NCBI RefSeq assembly: GCF_030503675.1
Contig: NZ_CP129964.1
Location: 2,294,001 to 2,358,000 of the forward strand
DNA from: Lutimonas zeaxanthinifaciens
GTDB lineage: Bacteria > Bacteroidota > Bacteroidia > Flavobacteriales > Flavobacteriaceae
Direction: 5' to 3'
Length of the DNA: 64,000 bases
The notes under the pieces are model-generated. The model saw nothing but the letters and a program-made list of their open reading frames with translations, made no database searches and was not told the origin of the DNA. A program made the translations under genes and the position numbers. Shown in pieces: positions 5,636 through 17,496 of the stretch (within the stretch, counting starts at the first letter, position 1; the number at the start of each line of letters is the position of its first letter).

Positions 5636-7504
5636 TTAAAAGTCGGGCAAAATACAATTATCTGATAAGTCCAAAAGTAATGGATTTATACCATCTTTGA
5701 GTGCCCTTGACATAACTTCTGAAGATTCTTTATGACACTCCAGACAGGCGCCTACCCTGAGGATCGATTTCTGTTCCTTGAGATTTAAGGGCCTGAAGTC
5801 CGTTCGGGTTGATACTTTTTTACCCGAAGGTTCAGAGAGAAATCCGATCCATGCATCTTCCGGATATCCGTCATAAGGGTTTTCCGCATAATCCGGCTCG
5901 AAACTCCAGCTTCCTGAACTTCCTTCGATCGTATAATTAAGTTTACCCTTCCCATAGCCCAATGCTGAAGGGTTCTGATGGCAAGAAGCACAGCTTCTCA
6001 CCTCTTTACCTGTGGTATGAGGTGCATTGGCCGCATAGAGTCTTTCAAAAATCCTTTCATCCGAATCTCCCTCAATGGTCAGGATCATTCCTGGTATGGC
6101 CGGCTCATATTTCCTACCTTCCCTGACTTCTCTCACTCCAAGGGAAGGAAGCCCCGTTTCAAACTCAAAAACATGTTCGACCCAGGTACCTGACTTTATT
6201 TTCTTATCGAGTAAATCATAGCCTTTCTGGTCCTTTTCATAGGTATTATGACACCCAATACAACGCGGAGCCCATTGCGAATGGCATGTCGAACAACTCA
6301 ATTGAGCGTGTGAAAGGTTTCCGGAACAACTTTCCGCCTGAGGTTTAATTAAATGTTTTTTTCCATCTTTTTTACCGAGCAGGTAAACGTTTTCATTTTC
6401 ATCAACATAGGTATTCACCAAAGGATGTCCATCGGCTTGAACTCGTAACATTCTTCTGTCTTGATGTGAATATTCACGATGCATAAATACCAACAACGAT
6501 TCCTTATCCAGATCTTCATAATCTATGGTAGCCGGCTTCTCCTGATAATGACAGTCATCGCATTGCAGCGAAACAGCCTCCTCTTCGTGTAAATACCTCT
6601 TTCCGTCACCCATCACCTCATGAGAACTGTGACAGTCAATACATAACATACCTTGAGAATGATGTACATCTTCTCCCTTAAATTCATATACCCTTTTATC
6701 CTGAAACACCTTATACCTCAAAGTATCCAACACCTCATCCTCTTCCAGTAAAGTCTCATGCCATCCCATATAGTTAGAGGAAATTCTTGAAGACCTGCTA
6801 TGACATCCAAAACAATGCTCATCTTTTACAAAAATATCAGTGGAAGGATGTATCGACGGTAATTCTTGCTTAGATGATGAAAGATAAGCCTGTAAATACT
6901 GTTCAGCTTCATCAGAATAATTTAAGTGACATGCATTACAACCTCCTCCTCTGCTCAACTGATCTATTTTTCCCAACTCCGTTTTCTCTGCTCCCAGATG
7001 GCAATTGGCACAAAGGTTTCTCAAATGTTCATCAGCAGCATTGTGTCCAAGGTTCCTGATATCATAGTGGAGGTCCGGACTATCCGTTTCTCCAAAAACA
7101 TATTTATCTACAGCAACAATTCCACTGTTGGTTGTCATAAGTGAATGACTGATCTTGAATAATTCATCGGGATGACAGGTACCGCATGTCTGTTCTGCAT
7201 TACTTAAATTTCCAGGAATCAGGACCATTTCCTTATGGGCTTTGGTTTTGTCAGTTTCCTTTCCGTTACCCAGGTGACAAACCACGCAGCCTATTAATTT
7301 GGGGTCATGGTATTTTGAAAAACCCTGTACATTTATATGACAATCCACACAGGATTCCTTTGAGGCCTCGATTTTACCATAAGATGATCCCGCTGAGTTT
7401 TCTACATCTTTAGTAAAATGCTTCATCACCTGCCATACGGATAAAAAGATCAGCAGGATCCACACCGGCCAGCTCCTTTTCAAATATTTTTGGGAAGCAC
7501 TCAT
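5636..7504 (-). CDS. Membrane-anchored dodecahaem c-type cytochrome
   Basis: A 622-residue protein with a short cytosolic N-terminus, one hydrophobic anchor (about residues 12-28) and a large periplasmic part. It contains twelve CxxCH haem-c motifs: CVDCH, CVVCH, CGTCH, CANCH, CNACH, CFGCH, CIDCH, CDDCH, CSTCH, CIGCH, CASCH and CLECH. Additional His residues lie between them and could serve as distal ligands. I do not recognise it as one of the well-studied families (nitrite reductase NrfA, octahaem tetrathionate reductase, MtrA). It is divergent from the molybdoenzyme operon across a 202-bp spacer holding a perfect CRP-type palindrome, which suggests it is the redox partner of that enzyme. 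Whether it carries electrons or catalyses a reaction is unknown. The start at 7504 gives the expected positively flanked anchor. Confidence 0.88.
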   Translation of the reverse strand: MSASQKYLKRSWPVWILLIFLSVWQVMKHFTKDVENSAGSSYGKIEASKESCVDCHINVQGFSKYHDPKLIGCVVCHLGNGKETDKTKAHKEMVLIPGNLSNAEQTCGTCHPDELFKISHSLMTTNSGIVAVDKYVFGETDSPDLHYDIRNLGHNAADEHLRNLCANCHLGAEKTELGKIDQLSRGGGCNACHLNYSDEAEQYLQAYLSSSKQELPSIHPSTDIFVKDEHCFGCHSRSSRISSNYMGWHETLLEEDEVLDTLRYKVFQDKRVYEFKGEDVHHSQGMLCIDCHSSHEVMGDGKRYLHEEEAVSLQCDDCHYQEKPATIDYEDLDKESLLVFMHREYSHQDRRMLRVQADGHPLVNTYVDENENVYLLGKKDGKKHLIKPQAESCSGNLSHAQLSCSTCHSQWAPRCIGCHNTYEKDQKGYDLLDKKIKSGTWVEHVFEFETGLPSLGVREVREGRKYEPAIPGMILTIEGDSDERIFERLYAANAPHTTGKEVRSCASCHQNPSALGYGKGKLNYTIEGSSGSWSFEPDYAENPYDGYPEDAWIGFLSEPSGKKVSTRTDFRPLNLKEQKSILRVGACLECHKESSEVMSRALKDGINPLLLDLSDNCILPDF

Positions 7505-7706: not shown

Positions 7707-9950
7707 ATGAACAATTCACGAAGGTCGTTTATCAAAATTTCTGCCCTGGGAGCAGGTGGTGTAGCCTTATCTTCTGCCGCTTTTAGTGCAATTCCATTAA
7801 ACGATACAATAAATTCGGGGGTGAGTAAAATCAAACCGTTACCGCTGAGAAGAACAGCTACTTATTGTGAAGTGTGTTTTTGGAAGTGCGCGGCCTGGGC
7901 CTATTCTGACGAATTAGGATCGATTCAAAAAATCATAGGAAATCAAAATGACCCTCATTGTTTCGGTCGTTTGTGTCCCAGAGGAACGGGTGGTGTGGGA
8001 ATGTACAGTGACAAGGATAGATTAAAAAAACCCTTGATACGAACCGAAATCAACGGCAAACAGGAATTTAAAGAGGCAAGCTGGAAAGAGGCACTGAATC
8101 TGGTTGCCGAAAAAATGCAAAATATAAAGGACCAATACGGGCCGGAATCTATGGCACTGATCAAACATGGTTCACCCGGCAGTCATCTCGAACACCTGTT
8201 TAAGGCTTTCGGTTCAGACACCATTGCAGAACCTGCTTACGCACAATGCAGAGGGCCACGAGAAACAGGATTTGGGCTGACTTTTGGTTCCTGGGTTGGT
8301 TCACCCGAACCCACTGATATCAGGGATACAAAATGCCTGGTACTCATAGGTTCTCATTTAGGTGAAAATATGCATAACAGTCAGGTTCAGGAAATGTCAG
8401 ATGCCATTGACAACGGTGCACAGATCATTACGGTAGATCCAAGGTTTTCAACGGTTGCTAGTAAATCTCAGTATTGGTTGCCCATCAAACCCTCAACAGA
8501 CATTGCTCTTTTACTTTCCTGGATGCATGTTTTAATCTATGAAGACCTTTATAATAAGGAATATGTTGAAAAATATGGACACGGGTTTGAAGCACTTAAA
8601 AAACATGTTAAACCTTTCAGCCCCGAATGGGCCTATGGTATCACCACTATAAAACCTGATCAGATCAGGAAAACGGCAAGAACAATGGCTTCAGCTGCAC
8701 CTTCAACGATTGTTCATCCCGGCAGGCACGTTACCTGGTACGGGGATGATTCTCAAAGAGCAAGAGCCGTTGCCATCCTGAATGGCCTCTTAGGGTCATG
8801 GGGAAACAGAGGCGGTTTTTATTTTAAAGAAAAAATCAAAATTCCCAAATACCCACATCCGGAATACCCACACCCAAAATGGGGCTGGAAAGAGATCGGA
8901 GAAAAATTTCCATTTGCGGAAATGGGAAATACAACCGAAGTTATCAAAGCCTCTATAGCGTCTGAGGACCAAAAATATCCAATCAAAGGTTGGTTTGTGG
9001 CGGGAACGAACCTGGTGGCCTCAGTTCCTCAAAAGAATCTTATTGAAAAAGCAGCCGAATCACTCGATTTTATTGTTGTGATGGATACAATGCCCATGGA
9101 AATTACGGGCTACGCGGATGTCATACTCCCGGAATGCACCTATCTGGAGCGCTATGACGGATTACGATCCTCTCCCAACAGAGAGCCTTCAGTTGCTCTG
9201 AGAGCACCCGCCGTTGAGCCCCTATATAACACGAAACCTGCCTGGTGGATGGCGAAAGAACTGGGAAATCGTCTCGGATTGTCAGCTTATTTTGACTATG
9301 AAACCATTGAGGAAGTACTGGACTGGCAACTCAAGCAGATTGGCAGCTCGCTTGAAGAGATGAAAAAAATCGGTGTCAAAAACTTTAAGAGAAAATCAGG
9401 ACCTCTTTATCTGCAAAAAGGGAAACCCTATGAATTCCCTACCCAATCCGGTAAAATCGAATTCTATTCAGATGAACTGGCCAGTTTGGGACTTGATCCA
9501 ATGCCGGTATATACTCCTCATGAAACCCCGAACCGGGGATATTACAGACTAAACTATGGAAGGTCTCCGATGCACACCTTCAGCAGGACCATAAATAATC
9601 CAAATCTTAGCGATTTAACCGATGAAAATACACTTTGGGTGAATCCTAAGGTTGCAAGAATAGAAAATCTGAAAAAAGGCCAGGAAGTATGGCTCGAAAA
9701 TCAGGATGGAAAGGTATCACAGTTTCCAATTAAAGTCCGGGTTACAGAAAGAATTCGATGGGACTCCGTTTATATGTACCATGGTTTTGGCCACAATAAT
9801 AAAAAATTATCCAGGGCCCACGGAAAAGGAATCAGTGATACAGATATGATTACAAGAATCAAGGTTGACCCGTTAATGGGCGGGACAGGTATGAGAGGTA
9901 ATTTTGTAAAAATACATATTGAAAACCCGGCTAAAGAAGTAATGATATGA
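7707..9950 (+). CDS. Periplasmic molybdopterin oxidoreductase, PsrA/PhsA type catalytic subunit
   Basis: This is a DMSO-reductase family catalytic subunit with 747 residues, the size of polysulfide/thiosulfate reductase PsrA/PhsA. A Tat signal (SRRSFIK followed by a hydrophobic stretch) sends it folded to the periplasm. The FeS cluster ligands are C54, C57, C61 and C90 (in LCPRG). C181 in YAQCRGPRE lies where the Mo-ligating Cys of PsrA is expected. MGD-binding segments and a C-terminal beta-domain with GFGHNNKKLSRAHGKG follow. It heads a run of seven tightly spaced genes and overlaps the FeS subunit gene by 4 bp (ATGA). Substrate candidates are polysulfide, thiosulfate, tetrathionate or sulfite; the direction of electron flow is not decided by sequence. 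No selenocysteine codon is present, and the sulfur-gene context argues against formate or nitrate. Confidence 0.88.
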   Translation: MNNSRRSFIKISALGAGGVALSSAAFSAIPLNDTINSGVSKIKPLPLRRTATYCEVCFWKCAAWAYSDELGSIQKIIGNQNDPHCFGRLCPRGTGGVGMYSDKDRLKKPLIRTEINGKQEFKEASWKEALNLVAEKMQNIKDQYGPESMALIKHGSPGSHLEHLFKAFGSDTIAEPAYAQCRGPRETGFGLTFGSWVGSPEPTDIRDTKCLVLIGSHLGENMHNSQVQEMSDAIDNGAQIITVDPRFSTVASKSQYWLPIKPSTDIALLLSWMHVLIYEDLYNKEYVEKYGHGFEALKKHVKPFSPEWAYGITTIKPDQIRKTARTMASAAPSTIVHPGRHVTWYGDDSQRARAVAILNGLLGSWGNRGGFYFKEKIKIPKYPHPEYPHPKWGWKEIGEKFPFAEMGNTTEVIKASIASEDQKYPIKGWFVAGTNLVASVPQKNLIEKAAESLDFIVVMDTMPMEITGYADVILPECTYLERYDGLRSSPNREPSVALRAPAVEPLYNTKPAWWMAKELGNRLGLSAYFDYETIEEVLDWQLKQIGSSLEEMKKIGVKNFKRKSGPLYLQKGKPYEFPTQSGKIEFYSDELASLGLDPMPVYTPHETPNRGYYRLNYGRSPMHTFSRTINNPNLSDLTDENTLWVNPKVARIENLKKGQEVWLENQDGKVSQFPIKVRVTERIRWDSVYMYHGFGHNNKKLSRAHGKGISDTDMITRIKVDPLMGGTGMRGNFVKIHIENPAKEVMI

Positions 9951-10480
9951 AATATGCAATGGTCATAGACACATTAAAATGTGTGGGTTGCAGCGATTGC
10001 GTCGTTGCATGTCAAACGGAAAACAAGGTTCCTGTTGGGTATTGCCGCGACTGGGTTACAGAATCCGTAAACGGAAGTTATCCTCAGCTCAATTTAGAGC
10101 TCAAATCTGAAAGATGTAATCAATGTGACAATGCTCCTTGTGTTCGTTGTTGTCCAACCGGTGCCAGTCATAAAGCAGAGGGAGGAATAATTTTAGTTAC
10201 AGCTGATGAATGCATTGGCTGTGGTGCATGTATCGCTTCCTGTCCTTATGATGCCAGATTCCAGCACCCTGATGGATATGTTGATAAATGCACTTTTTGT
10301 GCTCACCGGCTCAAAGAAGGCCAGCTTCCTGCCTGTGTTTCTGTCTGTCCTACCAAGTGTATGTACTTTGGAGATATTGAAGATCCTACAAGTAAGGTGT
10401 CACACCTTCTTAAGTCCAGGAAATATAAAGTTCTCGCCCCCGAAGCCGGAACTAAACCGAATGTTTATTATCTAATCTGA
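9947..10480 (+). CDS. Four-cluster ferredoxin subunit of the molybdoenzyme (PsrB type)
   Basis: The electron-transfer subunit, 177 residues, with four cysteine groups that would hold four [4Fe-4S] clusters: CVGCSDCVVAC, CNQCDNAPCVRCCP, CIGCGACIASCP and CTFC...CVSVCPTKC. It has no signal peptide, so it would leave the cytosol together with the Tat-targeted catalytic subunit. It should carry electrons between that subunit and the NrfD membrane subunit. It overlaps the catalytic gene by 4 bp and is 11 bp before the nrfD-type gene, which is the classic A-B-C order of this enzyme class. Confidence 0.93.
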   Translation: MKYAMVIDTLKCVGCSDCVVACQTENKVPVGYCRDWVTESVNGSYPQLNLELKSERCNQCDNAPCVRCCPTGASHKAEGGIILVTADECIGCGACIASCPYDARFQHPDGYVDKCTFCAHRLKEGQLPACVSVCPTKCMYFGDIEDPTSKVSHLLKSRKYKVLAPEAGTKPNVYYLI

Positions 10481-10491
10481 TACCTTGAATC

Positions 10492-11433
10492 ATGCAAGAA
10501 GAACTTTTCATAAGCGGAAGAAATATACCTAAGATAGATCCATCTCTTGAGGTCTGGCATTTTCCGATATCCCTCTATCTATTTTTAGGCGGCATGGCAG
10601 CCGGAATCATTTTCTTTGCTTCGCTTTTTACAATCCTTGGAAAAGAAAACAAAGTGCAAACAGCCATAAAACCCGCTATGATCATCGTGCTATTTGCTCT
10701 AAGTATCGGATTAATTGCATTATTTTATGACCTTACCCATAAACTATATGTTTGGAGGCTATATACAACCATAAGAGTTGAATCCCCTATGTCCTGGGGG
10801 GCCTGGGTACTTTTGTTTGTCACAGTCGCCAGCTTCTTATGGGTATTCAGCTATTTTTCCGAATTGTTCCCAAAGTGGTCCATCAAAACGGGTTGGCTTA
10901 AAAGTTTTGAACGCTACCTGATCAATCACAGAAAACAACTGGCGATCATACTGTTGCCTCTTTCTATAATTCTGGGAATCTACACGGGGATACTGCTGTC
11001 TGCATTTAATGCAAGGCCTTTATGGAATAATGCCATTTTAGGGCCTTTGTTTCTTGTTTCGGGCTTGTCAACCGGAGCTGCCTGTATCATTTTATTCTCC
11101 CGAGATCATATTGAAAGAAAGCTGTTCAGTAAAATAGACCTTGCTTTAATCATTATTGAACTTGCCCTTATTGCTCATATGCTAATGGGAATGTATGCCG
11201 GTTCAGCAGTTCAACTCGAAGCCCTGGACATCCTTATCAGAGGAGAATATACTGTGATGTTCTTTGTTTTTGTCATCATTCTGGGTCTGATTTTTCCTGC
11301 CCTGCTGGAAAGTATTGAATTATTAGGTTTTAAAGTTCCTGTGGTCATTCCCGCTTTGTTAATCCTTATTGGAGGATTACTTTTCAGAATGGTCATGATC
11401 GAAGCCGGACAGTTAACGAGATATTTATATTAA
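10492..11433 (+). CDS. nrfD: NrfD/PsrC-type membrane subunit
   Basis: An integral membrane protein of 313 residues with about eight or nine hydrophobic segments, of the NrfD/PsrC family, which anchors the enzyme and exchanges electrons with the quinone pool. Typical family features are the N-terminal WHFPISLYLFLGGMAAGIIFF and later GLSTGAACIILFS. It follows the FeS subunit by 11 bp and precedes the first YeeE/YedE gene by 3 bp. Family members either reduce a periplasmic substrate with quinol or feed electrons to quinone, so this subunit does not fix the direction. Confidence 0.92.
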   Translation: MQEELFISGRNIPKIDPSLEVWHFPISLYLFLGGMAAGIIFFASLFTILGKENKVQTAIKPAMIIVLFALSIGLIALFYDLTHKLYVWRLYTTIRVESPMSWGAWVLLFVTVASFLWVFSYFSELFPKWSIKTGWLKSFERYLINHRKQLAIILLPLSIILGIYTGILLSAFNARPLWNNAILGPLFLVSGLSTGAACIILFSRDHIERKLFSKIDLALIIIELALIAHMLMGMYAGSAVQLEALDILIRGEYTVMFFVFVIILGLIFPALLESIELLGFKVPVVIPALLILIGGLLFRMVMIEAGQLTRYLY

Positions 11434-11436
11434 GCC

Positions 11437-11967
11437 ATGAAGAAAGCAGAAAATCAAAATCGACATATATACTGGAACCCCTATTTTGGAGGCTTTCTCT
11501 TAGGACTGCTTATCCTCTTCACCTTTTATATTACAGGGCGAGGGCTCGGGGCCAGCGGAGCACTTAAAAGCAGTGTAGTTACCGTTGTAAACCAGGTTTC
11601 ACCGGAACATAGTGAAACTAATGCTTATTACAGTAAGTTTCTTAAAGACTCGAACTCCCCAATGAATAATTGGCTTGTCTTTGAGGCACTTGGTGTTATC
11701 CTCGGAGCTTTTCTGTCAGGGGCGCTTACGGGAAGGATTCAATGGCAGACTCAGCATTCTCCTAAAATAACAGCAAGAAGACGCCTTGTATTTGCTTTGA
11801 TAGGAGGATTACTCTTCGGATTTGGAGCACAAATTGCAAGAGGATGCACAAGTGGTGCCGCATTGAGCGGTATTTCAATGATGGCTACCGCAGGATTTAT
11901 CAGTATGCTAACCATCTTCGGAACCGGATATCTTGTAGCATATTTTTTTAGAAAAAACTGGATTTAA
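11437..11967 (+). CDS. YeeE/YedE family thiosulfate/sulfur transporter, first half-size subunit
   Basis: A 176-residue membrane protein of the YeeE/YedE (TsuA, DUF395) family. The studied member TsuA imports thiosulfate through a pore lined by conserved cysteines. This protein carries the family signature GFGAQIARGCTSGAALSG, with the Cys in the membrane half-helix, and four or so hydrophobic segments. It has half the length of TsuA; the next gene encodes the complementary half. It is co-transcribed with the molybdoenzyme genes. A periplasmic loop of about 40 residues after the first membrane segment (SSVVTVVNQVSPEH onward) is larger than usual from memory. Expected role: moving a sulfur compound across the inner membrane. 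Confidence 0.85.
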   Translation: MKKAENQNRHIYWNPYFGGFLLGLLILFTFYITGRGLGASGALKSSVVTVVNQVSPEHSETNAYYSKFLKDSNSPMNNWLVFEALGVILGAFLSGALTGRIQWQTQHSPKITARRRLVFALIGGLLFGFGAQIARGCTSGAALSGISMMATAGFISMLTIFGTGYLVAYFFRKNWI

Positions 11968-11984: not shown

Positions 11985-12575
11985 ATGGGACCACTTATTC
12001 CAAATGAAATAATACCGGTTGAATGGAATTTTGTATTGGCGATTTTGATAGGAATGGCTTTTGGGTATATCATGGAAGCTTCGGGGTTTTCTTCTTCAAG
12101 AAAACTAGTTGGAGTTTTTTACGGTTATGATTTTGCTGTTCTAAAGGTATTTTTAACTGCCTGTCTTGTTTCTTTGATTGGCCTGAGTTACATGAATTAT
12201 CTCAATTGGGTAGATCTGGATCAACTCTTTGTACAACCTACCTATTTGTGGGCGGCACTAATTGGTGGTGTTATAATGGGAGTCGGGTTTCTGGCTGGTG
12301 GATTCTGTCCGGGAACAAGCCTCTGTGCCGTTGGAATAGGAAAAATTGACGGAATTGCCTTCACCATAGGACTCTTCATAGGCATCATGATATTCTCTGA
12401 ATTATTTGAATGGATCGAACCTATTTATGAAGATTATAATCTGGGACACGTTACCCTGGACGAAACCATTGGAATATCAAGGGAGATCATAATTTTCGTG
12501 TTTACGATTCTGGCAATTCTTGCCTTTGCTGTTTCAGATCGTATACGAAAACGCACAAAGAAAATATTTTACTAA
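11985..12575 (+). CDS. YeeE/YedE family thiosulfate/sulfur transporter, second half-size subunit
   Basis: A second YeeE/YedE protein, 196 residues, beginning with a hydrophobic segment and the family motif EASGFSSSRKLVGVFYGYDF. It contains LAGGFCPGTSLCAVGIGKIDG, whose first Cys matches the pore Cys of the other half; a second Cys follows six residues later. It lies 17 bp after the first half. Together the two would give the pseudo-symmetric pore that TsuA forms in one chain. The adjacent rhodanese-fold proteins suggest that the transported group is sulfane sulfur or thiosulfate. Confidence 0.85.
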   Translation: MGPLIPNEIIPVEWNFVLAILIGMAFGYIMEASGFSSSRKLVGVFYGYDFAVLKVFLTACLVSLIGLSYMNYLNWVDLDQLFVQPTYLWAALIGGVIMGVGFLAGGFCPGTSLCAVGIGKIDGIAFTIGLFIGIMIFSELFEWIEPIYEDYNLGHVTLDETIGISREIIIFVFTILAILAFAVSDRIRKRTKKIFY

Positions 12576-12586
12576 AACAATACAGT

Positions 12587-13255
12587 ATGTCCGCCAGATT
12601 CAAAACAAAAAGAATACTCGTAAAAAGAAGTTATCAATTTCTTGCCGTCCTTTTAATAATTCTATCCGGCGGTCTTCTTCTACTTCCGGAAATTCAAAAA
12701 CATGAGGGACTAAGTCCGGAATACTATGTTAAAAATATGTTGAGTACCGAGCGGTATATCAGTACAGATGAACTTGCTGACAGAATAATCAATGAAGACC
12801 CTGCCCTGCTTATCATTGATACAAGAACCACTGAAGAATTCAAAAAGTTCAGTCTTCCAAATGCTATCAACATACCTGTTTCAGAGATTTTCAATCCGGG
12901 AAACAATCTTTATCTGGATCAGGAAGTATATGATATCGTATTGTATTCCAATGATCATTTCTTTGCCGAGGAAGTATGGATGCTCGGCAACAGACTAGGG
13001 TATCAAAGATTATATGTACTTCAGGGAGGATTAAATGCCTGGTTCAATACCATCATTAAACCTACCTATCCTGATCAGACCATGTCGAATGAAGAATTTG
13101 AAAGGTACAACTTTCGAAAAGCAGCGGGTAAATATTTTGGTGTTGCCACAGATACCATTGAGATCATTACAGAGGTTAAAATAGCTCCAACACCAAAAAA
13201 GAAGGTGGTTCCCAAGCCAAAGAAAAAGAAACGTATGCCGGAAGGCGGATGTTAA
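12587..13255 (+). CDS. Membrane-anchored rhodanese-fold protein without catalytic Cys, with GGC tail (copy 1)
   Basis: A 222-residue protein. Residues about 15-35 form one hydrophobic anchor, so the rest should be periplasmic. A single rhodanese domain follows (LLIIDTRTTEEF, LPNAINIPVSEIF, LQGGLNAWF). At the active-site loop, where family members have C-x4-R/G, the sequence is DIVLYSNDHFFAEE: Ser stands where the Cys should be, so sulfur transfer by the usual mechanism is not expected. The last 35 or so residues are a Pro/Lys-rich linker ending in KKKKRMPEGGC, and the terminal Cys is the only Cys in the protein. The tail recurs in the next gene. Possible role: a sulfur-carrying arm or a partner-docking domain for the neighbouring transporter or molybdoenzyme. 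Confidence 0.82.
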   Translation: MSARFKTKRILVKRSYQFLAVLLIILSGGLLLLPEIQKHEGLSPEYYVKNMLSTERYISTDELADRIINEDPALLIIDTRTTEEFKKFSLPNAINIPVSEIFNPGNNLYLDQEVYDIVLYSNDHFFAEEVWMLGNRLGYQRLYVLQGGLNAWFNTIIKPTYPDQTMSNEEFERYNFRKAAGKYFGVATDTIEIITEVKIAPTPKKKVVPKPKKKKRMPEGGC

Positions 13256-13303
13256 TATCATATAAATATGAATTCAATATTGAGAACAATCGAATAGAAG
13301 ATT

Positions 13304-13930
13304 ATGAAAGAATTAGAAAAAACCAGGAGAATATCAATATCTGCCATTCTTTTTTTGCTGGTCATTGTCATTGGTTTTATTACCCTCAAAAAGCCAGAAA
13401 CCTTTTTTACCAAGGATTCCGAACATACCCTTCAGTTCCTGAAGAACCATAACCATGTTATTAGTGCCGATTCGATTTCATCAATGGAACCTGGCACCTT
13501 TGTCTTGATTGATACCCGAAGTAATTTTGAATTCTCAAAAGGCCATATGGCACATGCAGTGAATATTCCTCAAAATCAACTTTTGAAAAAAGAACAACAT
13601 GATGTTTTCAACAGTGCGCTCGCAAATAATAAACGCATCATTATTTACAACGAAACCCCCGAGATGGCAAATAATTCATGCCTGCTGCTATATCAACTTG
13701 GTTTTGAGAATATAAATCTATTGGCTGTTAATACCTACTACCACGACGAAACCTTTAAAATTGTCGATAAATCCGTTGAAAAACCCTTGTACGATTATGC
13801 GCAGACCATGAAAGAAGCCAAGGTCCCGCCGGTAAAAAAAATAACCATCGAACAAAAAACTTTACCTCAAAAGAAAAAAGTTGTTACAAAACCGAAAAAG
13901 AAAAAGAAAATGCCTGAAGGAGGATGCTAA
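13304..13930 (+). CDS. Membrane-anchored rhodanese-fold protein without catalytic Cys, with GGC tail (copy 2)
   Basis: A 208-residue paralog of the preceding protein with the same plan. There is an N-terminal anchor (about residues 9-25), one rhodanese domain (FVLIDTRSNFEFSKGHMAHAVNIPQ) and a Lys/Pro linker ending in KKKKKMPEGGC. The active-site loop reads IIIYNETPEMANNSC, so the catalytic Cys is replaced by Asn, although another Cys lies eight residues later. Overall identity to copy 1 looks modest, while the tail is nearly identical, which indicates selection on the tail. It is the last gene of the molybdoenzyme operon and is followed by a strong terminator. Confidence 0.82.
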   Translation: MKELEKTRRISISAILFLLVIVIGFITLKKPETFFTKDSEHTLQFLKNHNHVISADSISSMEPGTFVLIDTRSNFEFSKGHMAHAVNIPQNQLLKKEQHDVFNSALANNKRIIIYNETPEMANNSCLLLYQLGFENINLLAVNTYYHDETFKIVDKSVEKPLYDYAQTMKEAKVPPVKKITIEQKTLPQKKKVVTKPKKKKKMPEGGC

Positions 13931-13969: not shown

Positions 13970-14000
13970 AAATGCCTTGCTTAAAGCAAGGCATTTTTTT
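13970..14000 (+). terminator. Rho-independent terminator of the molybdoenzyme operon
   Basis: An 11-bp perfect stem (13970-13980 with 13986-13996) with loop ttaaa runs into a stretch of seven T. Confidence 0.92.
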
Positions 14001-14371: not shown

Positions 14372-15373
14372 ATGAGAAAACTATCATTTATTCTCGTAAT
14401 TATGCTTTTACCTGTCTCGATTCTACTTACAGGGTTTAAAGCGACCAATAGCAATTCCCGAACTGAAATTAATCCCCCTGGTGAATTTGAAACCTTGTTG
14501 AATTATCTAGAATCCAACAGGCCATTCATCAATACCGAGGCCGCACCTGCCCTGATTTCGGCTGATGAGGTTAAAAAAAATCTCAAAAATCCGAAATATC
14601 AAATTATCGATATCCGAAGTGAAAGCTGGTTTGAATATGGCCATGTAAAGAATGCCGTAAACGTTCATCCATCTCAACTTTTGAATCATTTTGAAAACAG
14701 TATAGTTCCTACCGATTTCGACAAAATCATACTCGTTTGTTATTCAGGGCAGTCTGCGGCTTATTTTACAAGTTTACTGAGAATTGCCGGATATGAAAAT
14801 GTGTATAGCATGAATTGGGGAATGAGCTCCTGGAGAGTTGACTTTGCCGAAAACTCCTGGTTAAAAAACACTTCGGATCAGTATATTTCAAAACTGGAAA
14901 CCATCGAAAATGAAAAAACTGTAAAAGCTTCAAAGCCTTCAATTAATACCGCAAAAACGGAAGGTGAAAAGATTTTAAGGGATCGTCTTCAAAAAGCTTT
15001 TGAAACACCTTACAAAGAGTACATCGTAAAATCAAGTGATGTGTTTGAAAATCCTGGGAACTATTATGTAGTTGATTATACAGGTTTTGAAAGCTATAGA
15101 AAGGGTCACATTCCTTCTGCGGTTCAATACGACCCACAGGGATCATTGAGCTCATCAAAAGATCTATTTACACTTCCTACTGACAAGAGAATATTGGTAT
15201 ATGGTTCAACAGGACAGGAAACGGCCTATGTAGTCGCTTATTTAAATGTCTTGGGTTATGACGCTGGAAACCTTGCGTATGGAGCCAACAGTTTTATGCA
15301 CAAATCCTTAAAAGAAAGCAATCGGGAAGCTTTCACCAAAAAACAAGTGAACATGTACCCGGTAATTGAATAA
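14372..15373 (+). CDS. Exported tandem-rhodanese protein, one active and one Cys-less domain
   Basis: A 333-residue protein with an N-terminal signal peptide or anchor (residues about 1-22). Two rhodanese domains follow. Domain 1 (about 70-165) has YQIIDIRSESWFEYGHVKNAVNV and an active-site loop VCYSGQSAA with Cys123. Domain 2 (about 215-315) keeps the fold (VVDYTGFESYRKGHIPSAVQY) but its loop is VYGSTGQETA, without Cys. This resembles two-domain thiosulfate sulfurtransferases, except that there the C-terminal domain is the active one. It shares the CY(S/T)GQ(S/T)A loop and a WGMSxW segment with the next protein, so the two are paralogs. First gene of a three-gene unit with a second rhodanese and a porin. 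Expected role: sulfane-sulfur transfer in the periplasm. Confidence 0.85.
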   Translation: MRKLSFILVIMLLPVSILLTGFKATNSNSRTEINPPGEFETLLNYLESNRPFINTEAAPALISADEVKKNLKNPKYQIIDIRSESWFEYGHVKNAVNVHPSQLLNHFENSIVPTDFDKIILVCYSGQSAAYFTSLLRIAGYENVYSMNWGMSSWRVDFAENSWLKNTSDQYISKLETIENEKTVKASKPSINTAKTEGEKILRDRLQKAFETPYKEYIVKSSDVFENPGNYYVVDYTGFESYRKGHIPSAVQYDPQGSLSSSKDLFTLPTDKRILVYGSTGQETAYVVAYLNVLGYDAGNLAYGANSFMHKSLKESNREAFTKKQVNMYPVIE

Positions 15374-15409: not shown

Positions 15410-16426
15410 ATGAAAAAAATAAATTTATTTGTCTTAGCATTGTTATGTATACCGGTCTTGCTGCTCAGCTCCTGTGACAGAGGTGACGACATTAATCCGG
15501 AAAATCCTATCCTGGAACCAGCATTTGATGTCATGAAAAGACATATGCTCGATAATGAACTAGATCTTGGCAATATTTTGAGTGGACCTGGAGGCGAGGT
15601 TAAATTCGTTGCAGGCGCACCCGCCGAGGCTGATTTAGAAGCTTTTCTTAACAAGTATACCATCTTGGATATAAGAACACCGGAAGCCTTTAATTCAGGG
15701 CACATTCAGGGCGCCAAAAATATCTCATTCGCAGATCTTTTAAAAGAAGGAGATGCCGCTTCCAAAAGAATTCTTGTTGTTTGCTATACTGGTCAAACCG
15801 CTTGTTTTGCTACTTCATTATTACGTCTTGCCGGACATAGTGATGCTCAGGCTCTTAAATGGGGTATGTCAGGCTGGAATGCTGAGACTTCAGGCCCATG
15901 GAATTCAAATACAGGAGACGAAGCGAAAGGACATACGAACTGGGCGGCTCACAGTGCACCTTCAAAAATTACATATGAAGATCCATTCATCGATATATAT
16001 TCTTCAGATGGCGGAGATATTTTAAGACAGAGAATTGAGGCAGTAGTTGCCGGTGGATTTAAAACAGCGAAAGGAACCGATGTCTTGAACAATCCCGGAA
16101 ATTACTTTATCAATAATTATTTCAGTGATACAGACTATGGAAACTTCGGTCATATCCAGGATGCATTCAGGATCAAAGAGGAACTAAAACTTGAAGGAAA
16201 TGGAACCAACTATTTAAATCCGGAAAATACTGCAAAAGTGATCACGTATTGTTACACAGGCCAAACCTCTGCAGTGATAACTGCCTGGCTGCAAGTACTT
16301 GGTTATGATGCCTATAGTATGACCTTTGGAATGAATGGCATTTACCATTCCAATCCTGCGTGGGGACCAAATCAGTGGGGTGTAGGATCGTCAGTTCCTA
16401 AGAACTTACCATTGATCAAAAATTAA
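15410..16426 (+). CDS. Tandem-rhodanese lipoprotein with two catalytic Cys
   Basis: A 338-residue protein with a lipoprotein signal (LLLSSC, lipid-anchored Cys20) and an acidic stretch after it, so it is anchored at the periplasmic face of a membrane and possibly surface exposed. Rhodanese domain 1 (about 75-165) has TILDIRTPEAFNSGHIQGAKNISF and VVCYTGQTAC with Cys125; domain 2 (about 225-325) has ITYCYTGQTSA with Cys281. Both active-site loops are intact, unlike its upstream paralog. It lies 36 bp after that gene and 17 bp before the porin gene. Likely a sulfurtransferase acting on thiosulfate, polysulfide or a protein persulfide outside the cytosol. Confidence 0.85.
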   Translation: MKKINLFVLALLCIPVLLLSSCDRGDDINPENPILEPAFDVMKRHMLDNELDLGNILSGPGGEVKFVAGAPAEADLEAFLNKYTILDIRTPEAFNSGHIQGAKNISFADLLKEGDAASKRILVVCYTGQTACFATSLLRLAGHSDAQALKWGMSGWNAETSGPWNSNTGDEAKGHTNWAAHSAPSKITYEDPFIDIYSSDGGDILRQRIEAVVAGGFKTAKGTDVLNNPGNYFINNYFSDTDYGNFGHIQDAFRIKEELKLEGNGTNYLNPENTAKVITYCYTGQTSAVITAWLQVLGYDAYSMTFGMNGIYHSNPAWGPNQWGVGSSVPKNLPLIKN

Positions 16427-16443
16427 TCTTCAATTCAGACATT

Positions 16444-17496
16444 ATGAAAAACATCATATCGATTTTCATCGTATTAGTCCTCGTTATGCTCAGCACTCAG
16501 GTGAATGCACAGGGTTGTGACGCTGAGGATCCCAATGACACAATTGCACCGCCTAAAATCAAATTATTCGGTTTTATTCAGCCCGAATACAATTATACCT
16601 TCTCTGACCCCGCTGAAAGCACTTTTAAGTTCAGAAGAGCAAGAATAGGTGTAAGAGGTCGATTGTTCGAAGATTTTACTTATTATTTCATGCTGGAAAC
16701 AAGTCCATTTATTAATGGTGGAAATGAAGGAAGAGCATACCTGATGGATGCCTTTGTTACCTGGGATAAATACAATTGGGCACGAATCGCAGTAGGATCT
16801 TACAAGCAACCCTTTGGTCTTGAAGTTCAAACCGCATGTAACGCGTTAATTACCATTGACCGTGCCATAGTTTCAGACCAGCTTGTTGTTCCTCAACGAG
16901 ATTATGGTATCTCTGTCTGGGGTGGTAATGTGAATACCCGACTAAATTATGCAGTTGCCCTTATGAATGGTAAGGGATTACTCACAACAGATAACAACAA
17001 TAAAAAGGATATCGTTGGGCGCGTAACCTACAAGCTTTTTGATTTTGTTACCGTTGGAGGTAGTTTCAGATATGGTTACCCAAAGCTTAACAACGACGAA
17101 GACAGTAGAACCACTTATGGAGGGGAAATCCTTTTTGACATCAATAATCTTCATATACAAGGGGAATATATCTATGACGAGGGTGCTTATGACCCCGGAG
17201 CAGATGCCGGCTGTGGAGGTGAACCACTTGCCTTGGGAGAAAAAAGAGACGGAGCTTATGGCATGATCTGGTATGATACCAAGTGGAACCTGCAACCTGT
17301 TTTTAAATATGAGTTCTTTGATCAGGATCTTGACCTTAAGGATGTTCCTTATCGTTACAGTGAAAGAATGACTCTAGGCCTTAATTATTACTTTAACAAA
17401 GCCGTTCGGTTACAAGTGAATTATCAGGCCAATATTGAAACTGTACTTAATCAAGATAATGATAAATTCTTGGCACAAATTCAAGTAGTTTTCTAA
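16444..17496 (+). CDS. OprP/OprO-type outer-membrane porin
   Basis: A 350-residue outer-membrane beta-barrel with a cleavable signal peptide (ending VNAQ). It shows the family pattern of phosphate-selective porins O and P: FGFIQPEYNYTF, FKFRRARIGVRGRLFEDFTYYFMLE, RIAVGSYKQPFGLE and QRDYGISVWG, with alternating aromatic strands to a terminal F. OprP/OprO pass anions such as phosphate or pyrophosphate. Here, as the third gene after two rhodaneses and with a terminator behind it, a sulfur oxyanion (thiosulfate, tetrathionate) is a reasonable substrate guess. The specificity residues cannot be judged without alignment. Confidence 0.85.
   Translation: MKNIISIFIVLVLVMLSTQVNAQGCDAEDPNDTIAPPKIKLFGFIQPEYNYTFSDPAESTFKFRRARIGVRGRLFEDFTYYFMLETSPFINGGNEGRAYLMDAFVTWDKYNWARIAVGSYKQPFGLEVQTACNALITIDRAIVSDQLVVPQRDYGISVWGGNVNTRLNYAVALMNGKGLLTTDNNNKKDIVGRVTYKLFDFVTVGGSFRYGYPKLNNDEDSRTTYGGEILFDINNLHIQGEYIYDEGAYDPGADAGCGGEPLALGEKRDGAYGMIWYDTKWNLQPVFKYEFFDQDLDLKDVPYRYSERMTLGLNYYFNKAVRLQVNYQANIETVLNQDNDKFLAQIQVVF

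Follow-up and report, generated by a model that had tools for sequence, protein, structure and literature searches.

Cysteine-tailed, catalytically dead rhodaneses as candidate periplasmic sulfur carriers of a split YeeE/YedE channel in Bacteroidota

Lutimonas zeaxanthinifaciens carries two neighbouring genes for rhodanese-like proteins that lack the cysteine of the enzyme and have a cysteine as their very last residue, which raises the question of what such proteins do. An active rhodanese has its catalytic Cys in the active-site loop. The two genes (here called the twins) lie in a stretch of 64,000 nucleotides (the window; contig NZ_CP129964.1, positions 2,294,001 to 2,358,000), with the following positions in it:

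12587..13255, + strand: twin 1, 222 aa; N-in anchor, dead rhodanese domain (Ser at the catalytic position), Lys/Pro linker, terminal Cys
13193..13252, + strand: Cys arm of twin 1 (last 20 codons), ending in KKKKRMPEGGC
13304..13930, + strand: twin 2, 208 aa; same design as twin 1, Asn at the catalytic position
13868..13927, + strand: Cys arm of twin 2 (last 20 codons), ending in KKKKKMPEGGC

The initial annotation had described two adjoining reading frames, each with an anchor, one rhodanese domain and a Lys/Pro tail ending in MPEGGC, with Ser and Asn in place of the active-site Cys and with tails far more alike than the domains; all of this was borne out. The frames and their composition are confirmed by ORF calling and by Pfam, where the Rhodanese model (PF00581) gives 51.5 bits for twin 1 and 40.3 bits for twin 2 (cut-off 22.2). 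In the alignment the catalytic position is occupied by the Ser of YSNDHF (twin 1) and the Asn of YNETPE (twin 2), which rules out an active rhodanese or thiosulfate sulfurtransferase for the twins. Besides the tail Cys, twin 1 has no cysteine and twin 2 has Cys126. The stop codon follows directly after the final Cys in both, and selenocysteine at the ends is ruled out by the terminal codons in the window, TGT and TGC. The twins have 17 of their last 22 residues in common, 13 of these 17 with different codons, against 23% identity outside the last 22 residues. Both have a single N-terminal hydrophobic helix with positive charges ahead of it, accompanied in twin 2 by two acidic residues. At E 0.01 Pfam returned only Rhodanese for the twins, and membership in the SoxY family (PF13501) was rejected. 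The AlphaFold model of twin 1, made from six sequences, has a mean pLDDT of only 57.5, with residues 180-212 and 219-222 under 50, and is too weak to yield more than the recovery of rhodaneses in PDB; on docking it gives no information. The DNA pattern GARGGNGGNTGYTR has five matches in the genome, two of which are the twin genes; of the three others one was inspected and lies inside a longer ORF, and more genes with such an end are possible.

The genes around the twins suggest sulfur chemistry. In order, the locus consists of a PhsA/PsrA-like protein, an iron-sulfur subunit, an NrfD-like subunit, the two halves of a channel (YeeE-a and YeeE-b), twin 1, twin 2 and a hairpin:

7707..9950, + strand: PhsA/PsrA-like molybdopterin oxidoreductase (485.9 bits to the PhsA model, below its cut-off of 694)
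9947..10480, + strand: PsrB/NrfC-like iron-sulfur subunit
10492..11433, + strand: PsrC/NrfD-like membrane subunit
11437..11967, + strand: YeeE-a, C-terminal half of a YeeE/YedE (TsuA-type) channel; C137 aligns with TsuA Cys293
11985..12575, + strand: YeeE-b, N-terminal half of the YeeE/YedE channel; C108 aligns with TsuA Cys91, and Ser36 stands where TsuA has its entry Cys22
13970..13996, + strand: terminator-like hairpin of 12 pairs with a T-run, 3' of twin 2
14372..15373, + strand: untailed tandem rhodanese, N-terminus signal-like; loop of the first domain with Cys (by eye)
15410..16426, + strand: untailed tandem rhodanese, lipoprotein-like by eye; loops of both domains with Cys

The PhsA/PsrA-like protein has a weak Tat-signal match, under the cut-off of that model. 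The hairpin scan of the window as a whole gave no excess (8 found, shuffle mean 9.1). The two tandem rhodaneses behind the hairpin are followed by a porin and a regulator that is Crp-type by eye. The porin (16444-17496) is ExtI-like, and a multiheme cytochrome (Pfam) upstream of the locus in opposite orientation (5636-7504) is ExtM-like, both below the cut-offs of their models; a relative of this cytochrome at L025 scores 242 bits to ExtM (cut-off 800). ExtM and ExtI are parts of a selenite/tellurite reduction operon.

The two channel halves match the Sulf_transp model (PF04143) with 89.2 bits (YeeE-a, 11437) and 59.6 bits (YeeE-b, 11985), the cut-off being 27. In alignments to 6leo (TsuA) or its fusion, YeeE-a corresponds to the C-terminal half, its conserved Cys falling on Cys293, and YeeE-b to the N-terminal half, its conserved Cys falling on Cys91. 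These cysteines are invariant (YeeE-a, 25/25 rows; YeeE-b, 17/17 and 30/30 rows), and the position of TsuA Cys22 is occupied by S or G in 47/47 YeeE-b rows. A TsuA thiosulfate transporter proper was rejected on this residue, on the two genes and on the lack of a TusA-family match in the window genome. In the excerpts available of the TsuA-TsuB paper (PMC11073785), thiosulfate is located close to a conserved Cys at the outer surface of TsuA, for which reason Cys22 is read here as the entry Cys, and the Cys of TsuB is called a fourth cysteine, located at the exit. PmpA and PmpB likewise form a channel in two genes with one conserved Cys each, and excerpts of the SoxT paper (PMC11582611) describe PmpB and PmpA with only the Cys91 and Cys293 equivalents.

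Since the channel beside the twins keeps the equivalents of Cys91 and Cys293 and is without that of Cys22, it is proposed that the arm supplies the entry Cys. The twins would be membrane-tethered periplasmic sulfur carriers of the split YeeE/YedE channel, with a Cys arm that hands sulfur to it, as a persulfide or a thiosulfonate, a reading to which we assign a probability of about 0.55. The more general reading of the initial annotation, a periplasmic sulfur-carrying arm on a dead rhodanese, is supported at the level of sequence, and a sulfur-carrying role is the safer part, being likelier than the specific transfer to the channel. In the proposed mechanism the rhodanese domain would no longer act as a catalyst and would serve as a docking module instead, and the working Cys would sit at the very end of a flexible arm rich in K and P. 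This Cys would be loaded with sulfane sulfur or a thiosulfonate by a periplasmic enzyme, namely PhsA/PsrABC and perhaps the neighbouring tandem rhodaneses in the window, and an octaheme cytochrome or a 3MST-like protein elsewhere. The loaded arm would swing to the channel mouth, where its Cys would replace the missing entry Cys (TsuA Cys22) and pass the group on to the two channel cysteines. We infer the loading, the species carried, the swing, the contact with the channel and the inward direction. The passage of sulfur from the SoxY Cys along channel cysteines is held conceivable in the discussion of PMC11582611, where direct Cys-to-Cys transfer is also doubted, the cysteines of TsuA being about 7 Å apart. 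No TusA (PF01206) match was found in the window genome, nor in seven of the 11 other carriers tested; the usual cytoplasmic acceptor is thus missing in these, which is notable in a genome with a YeeE-type channel and counts against the proposal, and transport may instead run in the direction of export.

The terminal Cys was followed through the family. Twin queries against 296 genomes of the order (E 1e-10) gave matches in 6 and 4 genomes, and a profile of eight twin-1 orthologues (E 1e-12) matched 61/395 genomes of the phylum, which rules out a one-genome curiosity. Two of the 61 deviate, G448 (L126) with an ordinary untailed rhodanese and G554 (L127) with a frame-broken gene; the remaining matches have Cys as their last or second-last residue. 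Profile matches that scored 45 bits or more were aligned in two sets, and the terminal Cys is present in 43/43 separate proteins and 30/30 YeeE-b fusions; no other column of the 43 separate proteins has Cys in 10% or more of them. Left out of these rows are L126 (untailed), L127 (frame-broken), L087 (wrong length) and the tandem rhodanese of L029, together with matches below 45 bits, which include L086 and, from L028, its tandem rhodanese. For comparison, Cys occurs within the last two residues of 8/927 other ORFs around the first 69 loci (9/928 when L086, a family member called from an internal start, is included). The catalytic column over 77 rows reads S29 A21 G19 C4 N3 D1; Cys stands in the rows L085, L098, L126 and L029, of which the last two, an ordinary untailed rhodanese and a tandem rhodanese, are not members of the dead-rhodanese family. 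With the catalytic Cys mostly lost and the terminal Cys invariant, the family has dropped the Cys of the enzyme and kept that of the tail.

Tail endings over 67 loci are GGC (32), EGC (18), MGC (4), GGCG (4), GGCA (2), GGCS (2) and GLCS (2), with DGC, FQC and GGCT once each; over all fetched loci 73 tailed ORFs were counted, or 67 by a stricter rule. In the frame-broken gene at L127:7947-8540 a KKKKREGC end survives in another frame. The member at L104:7739-8362 ends in RFQC, with no Gly before the Cys; YeeE-a and YeeE-b adjoin it, and the usual enzymes are absent from the stretch. Diverged fusions at L160:7845-9041 and L162:6675-7871 end in SGGLCS, the Cys lying one residue farther from the GG pair, and adjoin two cytochromes, one octaheme-like and one that is b561-like in part (Pfam on L160).

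Prediction speaks for a periplasmic Cys tail. A hydrophobic helix near the N-terminus, mostly behind a positively charged start, is found in 41/43 separate members, and the remaining two are lipoprotein-like by eye. All 30 fusions have an extra helix directly before the rhodanese. The expectations of the initial annotation that the tail is periplasmic rather than cytosolic and that its Cys is kept in homologues thus came through, the former by prediction and the latter by count. Its remark that it knew of no sulfur carrier of this design also stands, within the portions consulted of the open-licence PubMed Central literature (including PMC13047784, PMC7887784 and PMC5317091), in which no description of a Cys-tailed dead rhodanese was recognised.

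Relatives and their neighbours were collected, and the split YeeE/YedE channel proved constant, often as a fusion, while the enzymes change. Since the first profile included the tail, it might have been biased towards tailed matches, and the search was therefore repeated with YeeE-a alone, which has no tail. At E 1e-20 it gave 69 places in 65/395 genomes, and a Cys-terminated rhodanese lies near 67 of them, 35 fused to YeeE-b and 32 separate (one, L127, split between two frames). Five of the 67 had been missed by the first profile search (G415, G492, G535, G550, G564), and seven YeeE-a places outside its reach were fetched separately. The two places with no tailed rhodanese (G456, G588) are the weakest matches and adjoin a metallo-beta-lactamase/rhodanese protein (Pfam on the L163 copy), which we take to be persulfide-dioxygenase-like:

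L163:2359-4344: YeeE half beside a metallo-beta-lactamase and tandem-rhodanese protein, no Cys tail
L164:5847-7832: the same arrangement

In L019, YeeE-a lies upstream of 7399 in two distant pieces of a metagenome chromosome, probably an assembly error.

The best surviving alternative is that the arm takes up sulfur from polysulfide or thiosulfate and carries it to a periplasmic enzyme (PsrABC or the octaheme cytochrome), as Sud does, the channel being an independent companion. The window locus, a PhsA/PsrABC operon, agrees with it, and so does genome G196 (99% complete; L027), which has PsrABC and both tailed twins but in which YeeE-a, the half used as query, found nothing at E 0.01, either in the locus or elsewhere in the genome; the arm can persist without the YeeE-a half of the channel, which counts against the arm-to-channel proposal. 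Across the family, however, the enzyme varies between loci and the channel and arm are constant. Locus types were assigned from shared gene clusters (L160 and L162 were typed as octaheme through the Pfam match of the L160 cytochrome), and a YeeE-a tree of 67 rows holds 32 octaheme-cytochrome, 28 Psr, four 3MST-like, two metallo-beta-lactamase and one other locus. It leaves out L068, where the contig ends early, and the trees are without the YeeE-a of L019, L079, L090, L096, L123 and L158, owing to ORF calling or assembly. One octaheme protein matches TIGR04315 with 601 bits (cut-off 375). On this tree the starred branches require the Psr label to have changed at least twice; the best tree needs six changes, and its bootstrap had not converged. 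The enzyme has thus differed while channel and arm stayed, and four TST-type loci have neither reductase within about 16 kb. The fusions noticed are, moreover, with the channel half and none with an enzyme.

The tail endings of the Psr-type loci point the same way. All eight Psr-type loci of one starred channel clade end in GGC(x), against 1/20 in the rest, where 18 end in EGC (including L127, from its separate frame) and one in DGC. As judged from the sequences, the tail ending goes with the channel clade and not with the enzyme. This could reflect an arm matched to its channel; plain co-inheritance could give the same. Taken with the points above, it makes an arm that feeds the enzyme unlikely.

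Somewhat less probable still is a redox latch, in which the terminal Cys would bond reversibly to a cysteine of the channel or of its twin partner, and the disulfide would gate transport by the redox state of the periplasm. A lone Cys at a flexible end suits disulfides, the channel offers two invariant cysteines and the twins have common tails. Against this, more than one tailed protein is present in only 8/67 loci with a tailed protein, so that pairing of twins is not general, and the setting of the loci read is one of sulfur chemistry.

The likeness of the tails within a genome bears on their partner. For five twin-bearing lineages (last 20 residues without GGC, one representative per lineage), tail identity is 0.81 within a genome and 0.36 between lineages, domain identity is 0.27 within a genome and 0.36 between orthologues, and none of the 120 permutations does better than the true pairing of tails. 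The genomes G001 and G017 each have the same tail on one further protein, a tandem rhodanese that is lipoprotein-like and has Cys in its loops, and the tail pattern occurs at exactly three places in each of these genomes. Tandem rhodaneses with an SGGCG tail common to two dead neighbours are located as follows:

L028:7025-8146: tandem rhodanese with the shared SGGCG tail
L029:12030-13148: tandem rhodanese with the shared SGGCG tail

A tail common to three proteins and alike within a genome suggests one common partner. It is very improbable that the likeness is due to gene conversion only and that the tail is a signal for sorting, anchoring or metal binding with no part in sulfur transfer: the excess of tail over domain likeness and the few codon differences at common residues in G196 (4/16), G017 (5/20), G109 (7/18) and G276 (6/14) would agree with it, but differences are many in the window (13/17), L018 (10/17), L019 (9/17) and G001 (10/22), the terminal Cys is kept in single-gene loci too, and at most one residue follows the Cys in 71/73 aligned rows, which leaves no C-terminal hydrophobic sorting segment. 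Recent gene conversion as the sole cause is rejected for the window, L018, L019 and G001; the rejection appears less clear for G196, G017, G109 and G276, where the low codon difference indicates that conversion may have helped.

Cys-tailed dead rhodaneses are a family spread through Bacteroidota and seen once in Gemmatimonadota. A plasmid of Gemmatirosa kalamazoonensis encodes a 3MST-like protein, YeeE-a, YeeE-b and a tailed rhodanese with Ser in its pocket, the sole Cys of which is the last residue:

L167:5387-10455 (NZ_CP007129.1): Gemmatimonadota plasmid locus of the 3MST type

The ORF after this system has its best match within the set in a cysteine-desulfurase-like cluster. A tblastn search of plasmids with the fusion, the separate rhodanese and YeeE-a as queries gave one Gemmatirosa record each, and also a Sulfuricella and a Microbacterium record (matches only). 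In the excerpts available of PMC5317091, Caldithrix abyssi is described with two single-domain sulfurtransferases near PsrABC. A phmmer search of PDB with the fusion protein found nothing.

The preferred reading, a tethered carrier that hands sulfur to the channel, may be set beside known systems. SoxY (of SoxYZ) holds its substrate on the Cys of a C-terminal GGCGG arm; DsrC/TusE has a C-terminal Cys arm, is cytoplasmic and carries sulfur between partners; Sud of Wolinella succinogenes is a periplasmic rhodanese-type sulfur carrier that works with PsrABC and has its Cys in the rhodanese domain. With SoxY the family of the twins has in common the predicted periplasmic location, a Gly-flanked Cys in a C-terminal arm (some members end in GGCG) and sulfur chemistry; it differs in the rhodanese fold, the membrane anchor or lipoprotein form and the link or fusion to a YeeE-type channel. 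A search for SoxY in 12 genomes gave no match and is uninformative, since the positive control was also without a match. DsrC/TusE is similar in the Cys at or beside the C-terminus of a flexible arm, but DsrC is cytoplasmic and of another fold, whereas the family of the twins is predicted to be periplasmic. Sud resembles it as a periplasmic rhodanese-type protein alongside PsrABC; Sud uses the Cys of the rhodanese domain, whereas here this Cys is lost and that of the tail kept.

TsuA-TsuB (YeeE-YeeD) also pairs a Cys carrier with a channel, and the split channel aligns with TsuA (6leo) including the equivalents of Cys91 and Cys293. The entry Cys22 of TsuA is, however, missing from it, and its carrier TsuB, of the TusA family, works in the cytoplasm at the exit (PMC11073785, in the part available), in contrast to a dead rhodanese predicted to be periplasmic. 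PmpA/PmpB are alike in the two-gene channel with one conserved Cys in each half (PMC11582611, in the part available); two PmpAB-like loci found here are without a Cys-tailed rhodanese and branch apart, PmpAB themselves being known by description.

A wider claim, that a tethered, Cys-tipped arm on a dead rhodanese, charged by whichever periplasmic sulfur enzyme the operon holds, discharges into a pore without an entry Cys and so provides a group-transfer route for sulfane sulfur in Bacteroidota and beyond, is put forward tentatively, with somewhat less than an even chance of being right. In the abstract of the recent SoxT paper (PMC11582611), the import of sulfur into the cytoplasm is called poorly understood, and in its discussion the presentation of sulfur to YeeE-like transporters is covered by models only. 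A carrier next to or fused to its channel, with one conserved Cys, makes this question of presentation testable by a single point mutation. Functionally the arm would belong with the known swinging-arm carriers, as a variant of them; the architecture of a transporter to which a Cys arm is tethered appears to be new. If the proposal is true, a new fold joins the swinging-arm sulfur carriers, the working Cys has moved from the pocket of an enzyme to a mobile tail, and the Cys tail would allow sulfur handling to be recognised from sequence in many Bacteroidota.
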